A stretch of DNA of 64,000 bases from Photobacterium indicum (GTDB lineage Bacteria; Pseudomonadota; Gammaproteobacteria; Enterobacterales; Vibrionaceae). Within the stretch, counting starts at the first letter, position 1; each line of letters opens with the position of its first letter. The stretch covers positions 124,001 through 188,000 of the forward strand of contig NZ_PYOC01000004.1 in the NCBI RefSeq assembly GCF_003026215.1, read 5' to 3'. Positions 302-61,249 of the stretch are shown here, piece by piece. The notes beneath the pieces are model-generated. The model was not told the origin of the DNA, did no database searches, and worked only from the letters and a program-made list of their open reading frames with translations. The translations under genes and the position numbers were made by a program.

Positions 302-429
302 CGAGGAGCGAGATACAAGGCACGAGAGGCGAGATACGAAAATCTAGAATCTAGTTACTCGTTACTCGACGCTAGCAAACTCTATACTCGCAACCTCGGT
401 ACTCGAAACGAGTAAACTCGACACTAGAT
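302..429. repeat. CTAG/CTCG-rich degenerate short repeat, overlapping the galU 3' end
   Basis: Iterated units such as GAGGCGAGATACGA, TCTAGAATCTAG, TTACTCGTTACTCG and ACTCGACACTAG fill the wecA-galU gap and run into the galU reading frame. The same vocabulary recurs at 22271-22326, 22780-22849, 23219-23262 and 53644-53667. The units are irregular in length and not spaced like CRISPR repeats. The last 19 or so GalU codons are made of this sequence. Confidence 0.6.
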
Positions 430-2973: not shown

Positions 2974-4848
2974 CTAATCAATCAAATTATCTTTAGCTAT
3001 TAAAGGCCATATTACATTAGATGCTATATATTCTGAGCCTTTAGGGGTCAAATGACCATAATCCCATACTAGGGGAGTTTTATTTTGATCAAGCTTAGCA
3101 AGACAACCAGCTTCGCTACAAAGCTCATTTATTAAAGAAATGTATGTTAGCTCGTCTTGTTTTGAATATTTTAACTTGGTATCACTATCTAAAGAAAATA
3201 AAGCTTTATCGAAAGCAAGATCACTAATTACTCTACTTTCCGAGGTAAAGTGCCTTTTTGCTAAAACTTCAGGTAGTGATGGGTGCCATTGAGGGACAGG
3301 ACCAACCAAAACGAATTTAGAAGTAACACCTTTAGATCTTGCAGTTTCAATTATAGATAAGTAATCTGTTTTATCATGTTGATTCTTCTGAGCCCAAATA
3401 ACTAATTCAGGAGCTTTATCCAAAAGAACTTCGAAAGCTTTCGAATTTGAGCGGAAGCACGAAAGCTCGATTTCACTAGTACCAGAATTAAATTTTAGTG
3501 AAGGAACACAAGCTGAACTGGCAACTTGATAAAACGGCTTATCTCGATAACCTCCTTTTAATCCGTAAGACAGAGCTTGTGCGTGAGAATCCCCCCAAAT
3601 TAAAATCCCACCGAGACCTTCATCAGTACAAGTATCAGAAATTCTATTTTTTGCTACGCCTAATTGCGAATCAAAAAAGTTGCACTCATCACCATAATAA
3701 GCTTTTAGCTCATCTGTAATGTATACATCCGGTTGATATTTTTCTACGTACTTTGTTTCATCTGATGTTGTAATGGAGCGGAAATTATAATCAAACCCTT
3801 TTCCCATATAAATGAACAAACAGGTTACAGGTACAAAAATTGACAAAACCACAAAACTAAAAGAATTTACCTTAAACTTTCGCTGCTCTATAAAATGATA
3901 ACTAAAAAAACCGAATATAATGGAAAGGGGGATACCAACAAACCACCAATTTTCAAAATAATAACTACCAAAAACTACTATAGGCCAATGCCAAAGATAT
4001 ATTGAATAAGACCATTTACCGATATACTGAAAAAATTTGTTACTAGTTAAAAGGCTTGTTTGGTTGTTAGACATAATTATTAAGAAAGAGCCAAATACTG
4101 GGAAAAATGCCATATACCCAGGCCATGGAACCTCACTAGATACAAAAATATAAGATAGTATTATAAATACAAACCCAATTATTTCTAAGTGTTTTCTCCA
4201 TCTAAATTTAGATGAAAAAGGAAATAAGAACGCTATACCACCAACAAGCATCTCCCAAGCTCGTGTTGGTAATAAGTAATATGATGCATTAGGAAACCGA
4301 TAAGAAGCGAAACAACCAACTAAAAATGCTATTATAGTAAAAGCACCAATAATTATCTTTACACGCCCTATAGAAAAAAACCTCACTAGTAACAATATCA
4401 TTATGGGATATAAAATGTAAAACTGCCATTCAACAGAAAGCGACCAAGTATGTAGCAGCCATTTTTCATAAGAACTTACATCAAAATATCCCGATTCTTG
4501 CCAGTAAACAACATTGGATAAAAAAGTAATACTACTTAGAGCATGTTTTCCTAACTTCATATAGTCGATTGGCGATAAATATACCCAACCATATGCTATC
4601 AAAGTTAAACACAACACAGATAGCGCAGGAATGATTCTTTTTGCTCTTGCTTTATAAAAAGAAAAAATAGAAAAACATTTATTTTCAATCCCTTTAAATA
4701 TTATTCCAGTCATCAGAAAACCAGAGATAACGAAAAAAACGTCAACTCCGGCAAAACCGCCTGCTAGAAAGCTAGGAGCAAAATGAAAAAATACAACGGC
4801 TAAAACAGCGATTGCACGCAATCCATTTATATCATAGCGAAAATTCAT
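2974..4848 (-). CDS. Membrane acyltransferase (family 3) fused to a C-terminal SGNH domain, OafA-like
   Basis: The 624-residue protein is probably an O-acetyltransferase of a polysaccharide: an inner-membrane acyltransferase-3 domain passes an acyl group to a periplasmic SGNH domain. Residues 1 to about 360 contain roughly ten hydrophobic helices and start with the family-typical YDINGLRAIAVLAVVFFHF. After a linker, the SGNH half shows block I (WGDSHAQALSYG, near residue 417) and a C-terminal DYGHLTPKGSEY block carrying the Asp-x-x-His pair. It lies in the O-antigen-type operon behind a glycosyltransferase gene, consistent with decorating the same polymer. A 9-copy AATA tract lies about 87-123 nt upstream of its start. 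Confidence 0.85.
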   Translation of the reverse strand: MNFRYDINGLRAIAVLAVVFFHFAPSFLAGGFAGVDVFFVISGFLMTGIIFKGIENKCFSIFSFYKARAKRIIPALSVLCLTLIAYGWVYLSPIDYMKLGKHALSSITFLSNVVYWQESGYFDVSSYEKWLLHTWSLSVEWQFYILYPIMILLLVRFFSIGRVKIIIGAFTIIAFLVGCFASYRFPNASYYLLPTRAWEMLVGGIAFLFPFSSKFRWRKHLEIIGFVFIILSYIFVSSEVPWPGYMAFFPVFGSFLIIMSNNQTSLLTSNKFFQYIGKWSYSIYLWHWPIVVFGSYYFENWWFVGIPLSIIFGFFSYHFIEQRKFKVNSFSFVVLSIFVPVTCLFIYMGKGFDYNFRSITTSDETKYVEKYQPDVYITDELKAYYGDECNFFDSQLGVAKNRISDTCTDEGLGGILIWGDSHAQALSYGLKGGYRDKPFYQVASSACVPSLKFNSGTSEIELSCFRSNSKAFEVLLDKAPELVIWAQKNQHDKTDYLSIIETARSKGVTSKFVLVGPVPQWHPSLPEVLAKRHFTSESRVISDLAFDKALFSLDSDTKLKYSKQDELTYISLINELCSEAGCLAKLDQNKTPLVWDYGHLTPKGSEYIASNVIWPLIAKDNLID

Positions 4849-4934: not shown

Positions 4935-4971
<37 letters not shown>

Positions 4972-4984
4972 GGAAAATCTATCT

Positions 4985-13949: not shown

Positions 13950-15163
13950 CAGGGCAAGATTACGCCCCCTTAACCCCTAAGGACTCCAGATGGGTAGCTA
14001 CTATTTCTACCTAACGGTCTTCGCTTTCTTTTTAAACCTGCTTTAAAGGATTCATCTGCATTTAATAGATTTAATGCAATTGAACCTCAATCGACCAATG
14101 TGAGCGGCTGGATTCAAGCAACGTTTTTGCATCTAGTTTCTTAGAGCTAATGTAATATCGAATCGATATGTCCTCTGCGGGAATATCTCCAACTTGCCTA
14201 ATAGATGCAACGATACCCATTACTTTTAATTCTGGCCAATCATAAGCAATATCACCCAGTACCGATAAAACTTCATTAACTAACGCTACGCGGGTTTCTT
14301 TACGACCATGCCCTTCTTCCTGAGTACTGTATGAGCTTCCTTCGAAGTTTTGCAGCATCTCCATTCTAAAGTAGTCATTAAAGGCTTTCTCTAAGCGCTT
14401 TTGATTACCTTTTACCGCCAATAAATAATCTGCACCTTTGCCAACTATGGCCTTAGCTATATCACGCTGACAGCCCATCGCATCAATAGTGACAAGGCAT
14501 CCACGTATGTCGAGTAGCTTCAGAAGCTCAGGTATAGCAGTGATTTCATTCGATTTCTCTGATGTTTTGATCAGCCCAATAACCACTTGATTTGCAGCAC
14601 TAAAAGCACTCACCATGTGGATTGCGCCTTGACGCCTTCCTTTGTCATAAGTGCCACGCAGAGTTTTACCATCAATCGCAATGACATCACCGTCAGTCGC
14701 TTGGTGACAGTCATCCATCCACAGAGCGAAGCACTTTTGCATCTGTTTGGCTGATATCATCCCCATCACTCTAGCAATAGTGTCATGGACGGGAATACCA
14801 CTCTCGAAATCATCATATTGCTTGAGCCAATCTAGGTGGTCTTCACCAAAATCTTGTATTCATCCCAACCATCAGCACCACCAATAACAGCGACAATCGA
14901 CAAAAATATAATGTCTGTCAATTTTTGTTCTATTTTCCATTGTTGCCGTAAGTCTTTGATTATTGAAATATGAACCAAAAGGCTAAGTCCATTCATGAAC
15001 GGATATCCATATACCGAAATATAAGTATATGATCACAGCTGATATAGATCGTCAAATTGATCCTAATTGGGATTACCGTTTTGTGCAGTAAACGGTAGTT
15101 TTAATTAAATTTCAACAGTGACTGAGCCCTTTCAGAATAAGGGCTCTTCATGAGCTTTCCCTG
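13950..15163 (-). mobile_element. ISAs1-family (H-repeat-associated) insertion sequence, degraded copy 1
   Basis: About 1.2 kb bounded by CAGGGCAAGATTACG (left) and the inverse of CAGGGAAAGCTCATG (right). It is nearly identical to the second copy at 40216-41484. The duplicated octamer AAGAAACG lies at 13936-13943 and 15173-15180, leaving 6 and 9 extra bases between the octamers and the recognisable IS ends. Compared with copy 2 it lacks about 90 bp near its left end, consistent with recombination between short AATGCAAT direct repeats. Confidence 0.85.
14071..14996 (-). pseudogene. ISAs1-type transposase, frameshifted and deleted (copy 1)
   Basis: The reading starts with MNGLSLLVHISIIKD at 14996. 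It shifts frame near 14860, where one base is missing relative to copy 2 (GATGAATACAAG against GAAGAAATACAAG), and reopens from about 14769. The central region has [11 protein letters not shown] and LVTIDAMGCQRDIAK, the DDE-type core of ISAs1/H-repeat transposases, and HSWSIEVQLH-like sequence. The C-terminal helix region (LDVGMNEDACRIRRDEA in copy 2) is lost in the 90-bp deletion. It is not expected to be active. Confidence 0.85.
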
Positions 15164-22270: not shown

Positions 22271-22326
22271 TAGGTTCTAGTTTCTCGATTCTAGTTTCTC
22301 GGTTCTGGTTTCTAGAACCTCGCAAC
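22271..22326. repeat. CTAG/CTCG-rich degenerate short repeat between wzb and wzc
   Basis: GGTTCTAGTTTCTCG, ATTCTAGTTTCTCG and GTTCTGGTTTCTAG follow each other as near-identical 14-15-base units. They fill nearly the whole wzb-wzc gap. Same family as the repeats at 302-429, 22780-22849, 23219-23262 and 53644-53667. Confidence 0.65.
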
Positions 22327-22779: not shown

Positions 22780-22849
22780 TTCTCAGTAGAGAGTAGAGAG
22801 TAGAGAGTAGAGAGTAACTAGATACACGTTACTAGCCCTCGCCACTCTT
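22780..22849. repeat. GAGAGTA tandem repeat plus CTAG/CTCG repeat upstream of wzb
   Basis: AGTAGAG is repeated about four to five times (GTAGAGAGTAGAGAGTAGAGAG), followed by AACTAGATACACGTTACTAGCCCTCGCCACTC. It borders the frameshifted four-helix-bundle gene on its 3' side. A related repeat borders that gene on its 5' side. Confidence 0.65.
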
Positions 22850-22859
22850 ACCTATTTTC

Positions 22860-23205
22860 TTTAATTTGCGATGAACGGTACTTTATCAACCCACCGATCA
22901 TGCGACCAACTTCTATTGACTCGTTAATCAGTTCATTTTATTGCCTCGGGGATATAATCAAGATCCCTAGCAAGCATCAGCTGAGTAACAAGCTCTCCGC
23001 AAGAACCTTTAGCAAAATATAAGAAACGCACATTATCTTTAGCCGTCTGGCGCTCAGCACCTTCAGCAATATTTGAAGGTATAGACACTGCACTGCGAGA
23101 AATTTGATCTTTCAATTCATAATCCTTACAGCTCTTTATCAATTTACAGACTTTCAATGTAAGCTGATAGCTTCTCTGCCAAACATCTAACTTTCGATAA
23201 TGCAT
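22860..23205 (-). pseudogene. Four-helix-bundle protein (S23 / 23S rRNA-IVS-protein family), frameshifted
   Basis: The first 90 codons from the ATG at 23205 give the family pattern: YRKLDVWQRSYQLTLKVCKL, DQISRSAVSIPSNIAEGAER and NVRFLYFAKGSCGELVTQL. The frame stops at 22933 after DYIPEAIK. The expected last helix (NELINESIEVGRMIGGLIKY) is present just downstream in another frame, down to about 22860. A single frameshift near 22940 therefore truncates a protein of about 115 residues. Such proteins form small pentameric bundles and their role in polysaccharide loci is not known. It sits between wza and wzb, with CTAG/CTCG repeats on both sides. A short product might still be made. Confidence 0.7.
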
Positions 23206-23218
23206 TCATTTCCCTTAG

Positions 23219-23262
23219 GTAGAGTAACTAGCTACTCGACACTAGCCTCTCGACCCTCGCAA
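23219..23262. repeat. CTAG/CTCG-rich degenerate short repeat between wza and the four-helix-bundle gene
   Basis: GTAGAGTAACTAGCTACTCG, ACACTAGCCTCTCG and ACCCTCGCAAC are consecutive variants of the same unit seen at the other four sites. It sits immediately upstream of the ATG region of the four-helix-bundle gene. Confidence 0.6.
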
Positions 23263-23269
23263 CTTTCCA

Positions 23270-40176: not shown

Positions 40177-41318
40177 TCACAACTCTAAGACTTTCCAATC
40201 TGAGTATCTATAAAGCAGGGCAAGATTACGAAGCTCCTTGCTCCATAAGGCTCCAGATAGGTAGCTATTATTTCTACCTGCCCATGTTCGCTTTCTTTTT
40301 AAACCCGCTTTAAAGGTTTTATCTGCATTTAATAGATTTAATGCAATATGACGAATTGCAGCAAAGTTTTCACCCGCTTCATCTCGCCTTATTCTGCATG
40401 CATCTTCATTCATGCCAACATCCAGTTTCCAATGCAATTGAACCTCAATCGACCAATGTGAGCGGCTGGATTCAAGCAACGTTTTTGCATCTAGTTTCTT
40501 AGAGCTAATGTAATATCGAATCGATATGTCCTCTGCGGGAATATCTCCAACTTGCCTAATAGATGCAACGATACCCATTACTTTTAATTCTGGCCAATCA
40601 TAAGCAATATCACCCAGTACCGATAAATCTTCATTAACTAACGCTACGCGGGTTTCTTTACGACCATGCCCTTCTTCCTGAGTACTGTATGAGCTTCCTT
40701 CGAAGTTTTGCAGCATCTCCATTCTAAAGTAGTCATTAAAGGCTTTCTCTAAGCGCTTTTGATTACCTTTTACCGCCAATAAATAATCTGCACCTTTGCC
40801 AACGATGGTCTTAGCTATATCACGCTGACAGCCCATCGCATCAATAGTGACAAGGCATCCACGTATGTCGAGTAGCTTCAGAAGCTCAGGTATAGCAGTG
40901 ATTTCATTCGATTTATCTGATGTTTTGACCTGCCCAATAACCACTTGATTTGCAGCACATGTGGATTGCGCCTTGACGCCTTCCTTTGTCATAAGTGCCA
41001 CGCAGAGTTTTACCATCAATCGCAATGACATCACCGTCAGTCGCTTGGTGACAGTCCCCCATCCACAGAGCAAAGCACTCTTGCATCTGTTTGGCTAATA
41101 GTGCAATGGACGGGAATGCCACTCTCAAAATCGCCATATTGCTTGAGCCAATCAAGGTGGTCTTCACCAAAATCTTGTATTTCTTCCCAACCATCAGCAC
41201 CACCAATAACAGCAACAATCGACAAAAATATAATGTCTGTCAATTTGTTTTCTATTTTCCACTGTTGCCGTGGGTCTTTGATTATTGAAATATGCTCCAA
41301 AAGGCTAAGTCCGTTCAT
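40177..41318 (-). pseudogene. ISAs1-type transposase, broken by two small deletions (copy 2)
   Basis: The frame begins [20 protein letters not shown] at 41318. It shifts after HCTISQ-like sequence, where about 23 bp are missing relative to copy 1 (near 41095), and shifts again near 40960, where 14 bp are missing between GCAC repeats. The longest intact part carries LVTIDAMGCQRDIAK, HSWSIEVQLHWKLDVG and NEDACRIRRDEAGEN, the DDE-type ISAs1 core and C-terminus. The reading frame passes through the left inverted repeat and ends at 40177 in flanking DNA. It is not expected to encode an active transposase. Confidence 0.9.
40206..40215. repeat. Target-site duplication, left copy (IS copy 2)
   Basis: ATCTATAAAG is found directly next to the left IS end. 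The identical 10 bp lie at 41485-41494 next to the right end. A 10-bp duplication is within the usual ISAs1 range. Confidence 0.9.
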
Positions 41319-41484
41319 GAATGATATCCATATACCGAAAGATAAGTATATGATCACAGCTGATATAGATCGTCAAATTGATCCTAATTGGGATTGCAGT
41401 TTTGTGCAGTAAACGGTAGTTTTAATTAAATTTCAACAGTGATTAAGCCCTTTCAGAATAAGGGTTCTTCATGATCTTGCCCTG
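40216..41484 (-). mobile_element. ISAs1-family (H-repeat-associated) insertion sequence, copy 2
   Basis: 1269 bp with terminal inverted repeats CAGGGCAAGATTACGAAG and CAGGGCAAGATCATGAAG, and a perfect 10-bp target duplication ATCTATAAAG on both sides. This precisely defines the insertion, which lies between tagD and the second cytidylyltransferase gene inside a same-strand run. It is nearly identical to copy 1 at 13950-15163, so the two are probably from the same lineage. Both have disabling internal changes, but different ones. Confidence 0.95.
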
Positions 41485-53023: not shown

Positions 53024-53665
53024 ATGCTTTTAACAACTCTCTATATTATTGGTATTACTGCTGAAGCGATGACAGGTGCTTTGGCTGCGGGCAAGCGTCA
53101 CATGGATTGGTTTGGTGTTATGTTGGTGGCGAGCGCGACGGCTATTGGTGGCGGTACAGTCCGTGATGTGCTGTTGGGTCACTACCCGCTTGGCTGGGTG
53201 GCAAATCCACAGTATTTGGTTATCACTTGTCTAGCGGGTTTGTTAACGACTGTGATTGCTAAATGGGTTATTCGATTTCATAAGATTTTCATTATTCTAG
53301 ATGCGATTGGTTTAATTGTGTTCAGTATTATCGGTTGTCGTGTGGCAATGGATATGGGATTACCCGCTATTATCTGTATTGTTTCGGCAGTTGTTACGGG
53401 GGTGTTTGGTGGTTTGTTACGAGATTTGATTACTCGTCGCCAACCTATGGTGTTGCACAAAGAGTTATATGCTTCGATTGCACTGCTAGCGGGTGTGATG
53501 TATTACGGCATGATGTATTTTGCAGTACCTGAACTTATCACCACAATCGCAACATTAGTGGTGGGATTCACAGCGCGTATGGCGGCTGTACAATTACGCT
53601 GGCGTTTACCTGTGTTTGTACTCGAAGAGCCAAAAGAAGACAAGTTACTAGAAACTAGAAACTAG
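53024..53665 (+). CDS. TRIC-type cation channel family protein (UPF0126/YicG-like)
   Basis: A 213-residue inner-membrane protein with six or seven hydrophobic helices. It has two copies of the UPF0126 repeat: ITAEAMTGALAAGKRHMDWFGVMLVA with ATAIGGGTVRDVLLG, and LDAIGLIVFSIIGCRVAM with VTGVFGGLLRDLITRRQP. The GGGTVRDVLLG and GGLLRDLI motifs are typical of bacterial TRIC homologues, which conduct monovalent cations. The last codons (LLETRN) and the stop are part of a CTAG repeat. A bidirectional terminator follows. Confidence 0.85.
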   Translation: MLLTTLYIIGITAEAMTGALAAGKRHMDWFGVMLVASATAIGGGTVRDVLLGHYPLGWVANPQYLVITCLAGLLTTVIAKWVIRFHKIFIILDAIGLIVFSIIGCRVAMDMGLPAIICIVSAVVTGVFGGLLRDLITRRQPMVLHKELYASIALLAGVMYYGMMYFAVPELITTIATLVVGFTARMAAVQLRWRLPVFVLEEPKEDKLLETRN

Positions 53666-53667
53666 AA
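53644..53667. repeat. Short CTAG repeat at the 3' end of the TRIC-type gene
   Basis: TTACTAGAAACTAGAAACTAGAA, three units of ACTAGAA with one further partial unit. It encodes the last six codons and the stop of the TRIC-type gene and belongs to the same repeat family as the four left-hand sites. Confidence 0.6.
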
Positions 53668-53672
53668 TAAAA

Positions 53673-61145: not shown

Positions 61146-61249
61146 GTATCTTCCTCTATAACATCAGAAATATAAAAAAGCGAACATCAAGTAAATAGTT
61201 ACTCGAAGCTCGCATTTTACGCTTTATCGGCTATTTAGCGTATTGCTAA

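Follow-up and report, generated by a model that had tools for sequence, protein, structure and literature searches.

Inverted heptad arrays at gene ends in Photobacterium and relatives, and their association with genes of the S23/IVP family

Introduction

Short tandem repeats built on CTAG and CTCG can be found behind several genes of Photobacterium indicum, and at two sites they run into a reading frame and provide its last codons and stop. What these repeats are, how they came to lie at gene ends and what might spread them are the questions raised by the stretch of DNA analyzed here, which is 64 kb long and is referred to below as the window. Two puzzles touch on them. The heptamers of cyanobacteria, Geobacter, Beggiatoaceae and Xanthomonas have so far been explained separately, and the proteins of the S23p family, one of which is encoded in the window, are given no known function in the account cited (PMC4990558).

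Heptad Arrays in the Window

The three-unit pattern CTMGNNNCTMGNNNCTMG has 10 matches in the window (within 344-375, 22277-22301, 23228-23259 and 53648-53665), against a mean of 0.02 and a maximum of 2 in 100 dinucleotide shuffles. The degenerate repeat family claimed at five sites in a preliminary description of this DNA is thus borne out, and a weak sixth site can be added at 61195-61212 (+ strand), 38 nt behind the stop codon of rluF, where ATAG-TTA-CTCG-AAG-CTCG presents two CTCG units behind ATAG. The repeat unit is a tandem heptad, CTMG+NNN, i.e., CTAG or CTCG followed by three free bases. The repeats formerly given as units in their own right (TTTCTCG, TTACTCG, ACACTAG, and GAGAGTA) are real, but they form one heptad family with free triplets rather than several motifs. 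Likewise, the five sites exist but are organized as inverted pairs of the form [CKAG-NNN]n-centre-[CTMG-NNN]m, which in most cases follow a stop codon, and those at 22783 and 23228 are the two ends of one gene-bearing element. Both this inverted geometry and the IVP gene within that element were missed in the preliminary description.

At the end of galU, the left arm (292-333, - strand) has six CT units on the - strand, and the right arm (344-429, + strand) has five units at 344-378 and then degenerate units up to 429. The spacer between wzb and wzc harbors a gene-less array of seven CT units of the types CTAG, CTCG, and CTGG (22277-22325, + strand). The gene-bearing element lies in the spacer between wza and wzb (22783-23269, - strand), with arrays at both ends and the IVP ORF between them. 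Its left arm (22783-22842, - strand), located just ahead of the start of wzb, consists, as read by eye, of GAGAGTA units (CTCTCTA on the other strand) together with some of the CTAG/CTCG type, and its right arm (23228-23269, + strand), directly behind the wza stop codon, reads CTAGCTA CTCGACA CTAGCCT CTCGACC CTCGCAA CTTTCCA, with five CTMG units. The array at the 3' end of a TRIC-type gene (53638-53668, + strand) reads CAAGTTA CTAGAAA CTAGAAA CTAG.

Regarding the gene ends themselves, the array at galU encodes the last ~20 GalU residues in the source genome, close to the 19 formerly claimed, the stretch 362-429 giving the C-terminus and the stop codon. The TRIC-type gene (53024-53665; PF03458, Gly_transporter family), which is convergent with a neighboring chorismate synthase gene, indeed takes its last codons, LLETRN-stop, from the array, as its reading frame confirms. 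Since CTAG contains TAG, and since a period of 7 nt places TAG in all three frames, arrays that enter gene ends supply a new C-terminus, as in these two genes, which shows how gene 3' ends, e.g., that of galU, can gain new codons. Of 17 named Photobacterium galU loci, 8 have LKLVG or LKLVS at the C-terminus and nine have other ends. By its galU, the source genome is placed in Photobacterium, P. lipolyticum being the nearest named match (90%).

Repeats of other kinds can also be found in the window. Similar copies with a DDE_Tnp_1 transposase gene at 13984-15163 and 40251-41484 represent an insertion sequence present twice, one 300-bp block being identical between the copies and other blocks 90-97% identical. 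About nine TAAA units lie at 4936-4972, upstream of an ORF at 2974-4848 (- strand).

The IVP Gene of the wza-wzb Element

The ORF enclosed by the wza-wzb element (22933-23205, - strand; 90 aa) belongs to the 23S_rRNA_IVP/S23/four-helix-bundle family (IVP, 23S rRNA intervening-sequence protein), with profile matches to Pfam PF05635 (1.3e-31) and TIGR02436, "four helix bundle protein" (4.2e-30), and a match in the PDB to 2gsc (2.2e-14). It is the only PF05635 match in the source genome. This ORF is shorter than its relatives and frameshifted near its end; intact relatives exist, and the family is under purifying selection, with a median dN/dS of 0.086 over 11 pairs and of 0.078 in the six pairs whose dS is under 1.5. 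A single IVP copy adjoins heptad arrays in the source genome (G000) as well as in G359, G424, and G430.

The wza-wzb spacer lacks the IVP gene in L304, L305, L308, and L309, and contains it with heptads in L307, L312, and L328. IVP elements can also be found at this junction in L335, L336, L338, and L340, i.e., in several Photobacterium and in G112, which is of another genus. The sharing of the junction suggests either an old common insertion or a hot spot. At six loci in the families f116, f46, f38, and f127, an IVP gene lies between rpsI and tRNA-Gln, rpsI being identified by its C-terminal motif, which is also found upstream of the gene in L374 and L375. As this position recurs in four families, the IVP gene may be inherited vertically and not itself be mobile, while the gene-less arms spread, in the manner of RAYT-REPIN systems.

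Distribution and Position of the Arrays

The source genome (5.9 Mb) contains 27 matches to the three-unit pattern, compared with 7 to a reversed control. These matches are distributed over nine places, of which the window has four, and chance may account for some of the remaining five. Arrays of four units can be found in 38 of the 52 genomes of the genus, in 179/247 genomes of the family f1, which we take to be Vibrionaceae, and in 31/274 of the class, the reversed-pattern control being non-zero in a number of genomes and highest in some array-rich ones. A census of periods in 800 kb from three genomes gave 21 perfect period-7 arrays, 17 with CTMG and four with CTCT, against at most two arrays per genome for any other period. 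The units thus exceed background frequency; a background level was an outcome that the preliminary description had named as fatal to its claim. The chance share of CTMG is 8% of heptamers; its share in the census is biased upward, as the genomes, and some of the stretches too, were picked for CTMG arrays.

As to position, 46 of 51 arrays are not mostly within ORFs (called by length only), though 82-88% of the sampled sequence is coding, and all five arrays scored within ORFs come from f116. Among the 44 arrays of the sampled stretches that have a neighboring 3' end, 31 are found within 50 nt of a stop codon, the enrichment that had been proposed as a check, and outside f116 convergent gene pairs are the commonest context. 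An amplifying intergenic element at gene ends, as first supposed, is therefore supported in the relatives. As to mobility, species differ in the presence of elements at the same gene junction, as observed at galU, at wza-wzb and at two sites of G021. In these spacers, which are too diverged to fix exact ends, the search for empty sites (the two G021 elements and wza-wzb) gave no clean empty site and no exact boundary, and neither an insertion boundary, a target duplication nor a catalytic motif was found; we infer mobility from the differences in presence.

Arm Architecture and Folding

The two arms of a pair have a preferred order. For CTCG-containing arms at most 200 nt apart, the order is "-+" in 23 of 26 cases, and "+-", "++", and "--" occur once each. 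The triplets of both arms need not be complementary. The arms of f116, f46, and f38 are compact, their triplets being mixed, and exactly five CT units were counted in 36 of 52, 46 of these 52 (33 of them with five units) coming from stretches picked around four-unit matches. The unpicked stretches offer four arms only, with 3, 3, 5, and 6 units, and 12 of the 24 arms within 260 nt of IVP genes have five. Taken together, these counts suggest that compact arms are often five-unit, mostly in array-picked stretches. In Photobacterium G021 and in G112, arm length varies between 3 and 26 units and homogeneous arms are frequent; such long homogeneous arms look like the product of a later expansion.

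Arrays of this kind might be no more than common heptanucleotide repeats of the simple-sequence type, which arose through polymerase slippage, are tolerated in spacers and have no relation to IVP. The two papers cited report an excess of heptamer repeats in bacteria and attribute it to slippage (PMC4692102; PMC4679880), homogeneous arrays as long as those of G021 and G112 do occur, and the reversed-pattern control also gives matches in a number of genomes. Slippage does not account, however, for a CTMG core common to most arrays of the census (from stretches partly chosen for CTMG), for its retention while the triplets are heterogeneous, for the order of the arms or for the association with IVP described below, and as a complete explanation it is quite unlikely. 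By definition, a simple sequence repeat has its whole unit conserved and neither a fixed sequence nor a fixed strand order; the present arrays, with CTMG fixed, triplets free and a predominant "-+" order within 200 nt, do not match this description.

RNA folding was compared with that of shuffled sequences. Five complete elements from genomes of the class gave z values of -4.8 to -8.4, and five G021 elements gave -1.9 to -7.0; four stretches of the window are weak in this respect (-0.3 to -2.7), and a sixth class stretch, folded as left arm only, gave -1.2. Strong folding of complete elements, together with the A-run that precedes and the T-run that trails the arms in f116 and the placement of most arrays at 3' ends and between convergent genes, would be in keeping with bidirectional terminators or mRNA 3'-end stabilizers selected for that role. 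Yet the window elements fold weakly, separate intrinsic terminators adjoin some arrays (by eye), and a terminator leaves the 7-nt period and IVP unexplained. Selection for such a role is an improbable origin of the arrays, and termination could be a secondary effect.

Some individual elements have peculiar surroundings. In f116 (L272 1435-1584 and L262 11359-11432), the right arm is followed within a few bases by a start codon that, as judged by eye, lacks an evident Shine-Dalgarno sequence, and in L272 the element seems by eye to fill the entire spacer between two genes. In G289 (L221 2430-2640, 9078-9282, and 11550-11703; L218 9600-9811), the heptad arms are nested within a REP-like palindrome that begins with TGTAGGAGCG or GTGGGAGCG, as if one repeat had targeted or fused with another.

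Association of IVP Genes with Arrays

PF05635 is present in 18/18 array-bearing genomes, chosen for their arrays (22 copies, exactly one in 15 of the 18), and in 0/14 control genomes. In the sample of the class, 19 of the 31 genomes with arrays have IVP, as do 38 of the 243 without (Fisher p 1.5e-7), and in the family, arrays are found in 69/70 genomes with IVP against 110/177 without (p 9e-11), with medians of 40.5 and 6 matches; related genomes are not independent in these statistics, and the source genome was omitted in one version of the Fisher test. Array genomes devoid of IVP thus include the 110 just mentioned, to which belong 26 of the 59 family genomes with at least 50 matches, and 12 of the 31 array genomes of the class. 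A putative loss of IVP would explain them.

For 61 full-length IVP loci (10 of 71 loci reach contig ends and were dropped), the identity at lag 7 in the 200-nt flanks is 0.351 and 0.360, compared with 0.262 at the far ends; no rise is seen for lags 3-6 and 8-13, and lag 14 is raised as the double of 7. A strict lag-7 threshold is passed by 28 upstream and 22 downstream flanks, and by both at 14 of the 61 loci. The left and right flanks also match each other when inverted, with a score of 18.1 for a locus's own partner, 10.5 for the partner of another locus and 9.1 for far flanks. This inverted match exceeds the 95th percentile of far flanks at 43/61 loci; the window locus (L345), with a score of 11, equals that percentile and is not above it. 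CTCG-containing arms at IVP flanks have the expected orientation in 19 cases and the opposite one in 9, and at L341 no clear heptads can be seen by eye. Arrays and IVP co-occur, and the average IVP locus has inverted 7-nt arrays on its flanks.

The type of heptad varies among IVP copies, e.g., CTMG, TAGGGAG, GTGTTCA, CATCACC, GAACTCA, CTTGANT, and others. When a CTNG label is mapped on the IVP tree, 8 changes are required against a mean of 15.4 for shuffled labels, with 0/500 shuffles as low, on a tree that has few columns, many open forks and near-copies and in which 14 of 61 rows have no label. Among 29 genomes of the class, the five with a CTMG-flanked IVP have 34-256 CTMG matches and the 24 others have 0-33 (p 8e-5, or 0.001 if only the best IVP locus counts; the source genome was left out), i.e., CTMG arrays are most numerous in those genomes of the class whose IVP has CTMG flanks. 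In G382, whose IVP is of another heptad type, neither CTMG nor any other strong period-7 array was found in 200 kb.

Similar flanks can be found on plasmids. This separate set comprises 15 of 21 records of named S23 genes, from Nostoc, Anabaena, Calothrix, Stanieria, Aulosira, Pseudanabaena, Riemerella, Geminocystis, Picosynechococcus, and Azospirillum. Their flanks have a lag-7 identity of 0.450/0.457 against 0.252, and at 13 of the 15 loci one flank or both surpass the highest of 30 far windows, both doing so at 9; L427 and L436 are at background, and in L432 both arrays run in one direction. Periodic flanks are found in Cyanobacteria and at single loci of Bacteroidota and Alphaproteobacteria. 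On three cyanobacterial plasmids (L425, L432, and L436), the S23 genes are located within CRISPR operons, either between cas6 and cas4 or between cas10 and a cmr3-family gene.

It could be argued that IVP is a hitchhiker that inserts into pre-existing palindromic heptad sites, the arrays being spread by another factor. The many array genomes of the family without IVP would fit this explanation, as would the IVP genes fixed between rpsI and tRNA-Gln in four families, where arrays move and IVP does not. A hitchhiker would nevertheless not be expected to have a heptad type that varies by IVP copy and follows the IVP tree, nor should the dispersal of CTMG depend on which heptad lies beside IVP; the periodic plasmid flanks in such distant hosts also speak against it. 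None of the 23 "-+" pairs encloses a gene-sized gap, a weak argument, as IVP elements in the same stretches also went undetected as pairs. On balance the hitchhiker explanation is unlikely.

Another driver to be considered is the RAYT (Y1) transposase of REP/REPIN elements. PF01797 matches can be found in all eight array-bearing genomes of the class tested outside the family, and the heptad arms of G289 lie within REP-like palindromes. However, 20 loci were examined out of the 27 PF01797 matches, and none has a heptad pair next to the gene, the units seen at three loci being at least 700 bases away, and G000, G112, G197, and G098 bear arrays with no PF01797 match. RAYT was therefore rejected as the driver, and a role for it is extremely improbable.

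Proposed Explanation

REP-like dispersed elements with a parent copy that carries IVP are the best reading of these data. With a probability of roughly 0.57, the repeats of the window belong, as inverted heptad arms, to a family of dispersed elements in which the parent is built as [CKAG-NNN]n - IVP gene - [CTMG-NNN]m, IVP acting in trans. We infer that IVP binds the heptads and that its link with their dispersal is causal. In such a mechanism, IVP would act in trans as a pentameric ring whose subunits would each read one heptad, in succession along a single-stranded DNA or RNA arm. Gene-less copies marked in this way by IVP might then be copied by host functions into new intergenic sites, slippage might subsequently lengthen the arms to give the long homogeneous arrays of the window's family, and copies would persist where they are least harmful, i.e., behind stop codons and between convergent genes.

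As regards stoichiometry, each of the solved relatives, 2gsc and 2rld, comprises five chains. TRAP, which reads triplets, is a model for a ring that reads one unit per subunit. As there are five subunits and the arms are often five-unit, the ring may read one heptad per subunit. The link of the IVP family to Avd was not recovered by sequence in the PDB. A Xanthomonas protein is described as a toroidal homopentamer in the paper cited (PMC4990558).

A wider and more tentative claim, which is possible but rather less than an even bet, is that IVP/S23 serves in trans a large class of selfish elements that spans phyla, in which each variant would read its own heptad "address" through the five-subunit ring and spread inverted arms without a known transposase. 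The short tandem repeats (STRRs) of cyanobacteria, the paired sites of Geobacter and the heptamers of the intervening sequences (IVS) of 23S rRNA would then be one system. Pairing each IVP with its own heptad offers one testable answer to both puzzles raised above, and the DNA or RNA target of the IVP pentamer could be read from the flanks of its gene.

Comparison with Known Systems

In REPIN-RAYT systems, a genome mostly has a single conserved gene, accompanied by many gene-less palindromic copies that are dispersed in the spacers. The elements described here are alike in combining one gene with many gene-less palindromes, IVP taking the place of RAYT, as reflected by the single copy in most of the array genomes; they are unlike in that the gene is not a Y1 transposase and the arms are 7-nt tandem arrays. 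The STRR heptamers of cyanobacteria are also 7-nt tandem repeats, treated as direct repeats or regulatory sites. They share with the present arrays an intergenic location, and such heptamers lie on either side of the S23 genes carried by plasmids of Nostoc, Anabaena, and Calothrix.

Several other heptamers have been reported. The TAACTGA repeats of Beggiatoaceae, which are likewise 7-nt tandem repeats between genes, have stop codons in all three frames and are found at ORF ends; unlike the arrays of the window, they are treated as direct repeats or regulatory sites in the paper cited, and its main text contains neither "S23" nor "four helix" (PMC4679880). In Geobacter metallireducens, four classes of "predicted global regulator binding sites" are mostly paired, with classes 1 and 2 on opposite strands, and class 3 consists of five tandem heptanucleotides (MTYCTGA) in 15 of 16 sites. 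They differ from the present elements in being read, in that report, as IHF/HU sites and in that the units of class 1 measure 8 nt and those of class 4 are pentanucleotides; neither "S23" nor "four-helix" occurs in the main text (PMC2700814). The GGGAATC and GGGGA(C/T)T heptamers of Xanthomonas and Nostoc also form intergenic 7-nt arrays, some of them inverted, but are studied as G-quadruplexes in the source cited (PMC4692102). Among the titles and abstracts searched, a set exclusive of preprints and most subscription journals, none links S23/IVP to dispersed heptads, nor do the passages on heptamers cited here. With regard to that literature, the link between S23/IVP and dispersed heptads is new here, and the heptamers of Coxiella and Geobacter, TAACTGA and the G-rich heptamers are in print already.

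The IVS of 23S rRNA that contain an S23p ORF, e.g., in Coxiella and Leptospira, are also among the known systems closest to the gene-bearing element. The Coxiella IVS has three tandem GACAGAT heptamers and a degenerate fourth before the ORF, which vary among strains (PMC4990558). Both the IVS and the present element have an S23p-family (PF05635) ORF with inverted sequences at its two ends, read by eye in the window. The present elements are unlike the IVS in being intergenic and in having dispersed gene-less arms, with hundreds of pattern matches in some genomes. Instead of a 23S rRNA gene, the window copy occupies the wza/wzb spacer, six others lie between rpsI and tRNA-Gln, and the plasmid copies sit between protein genes where these are annotated.
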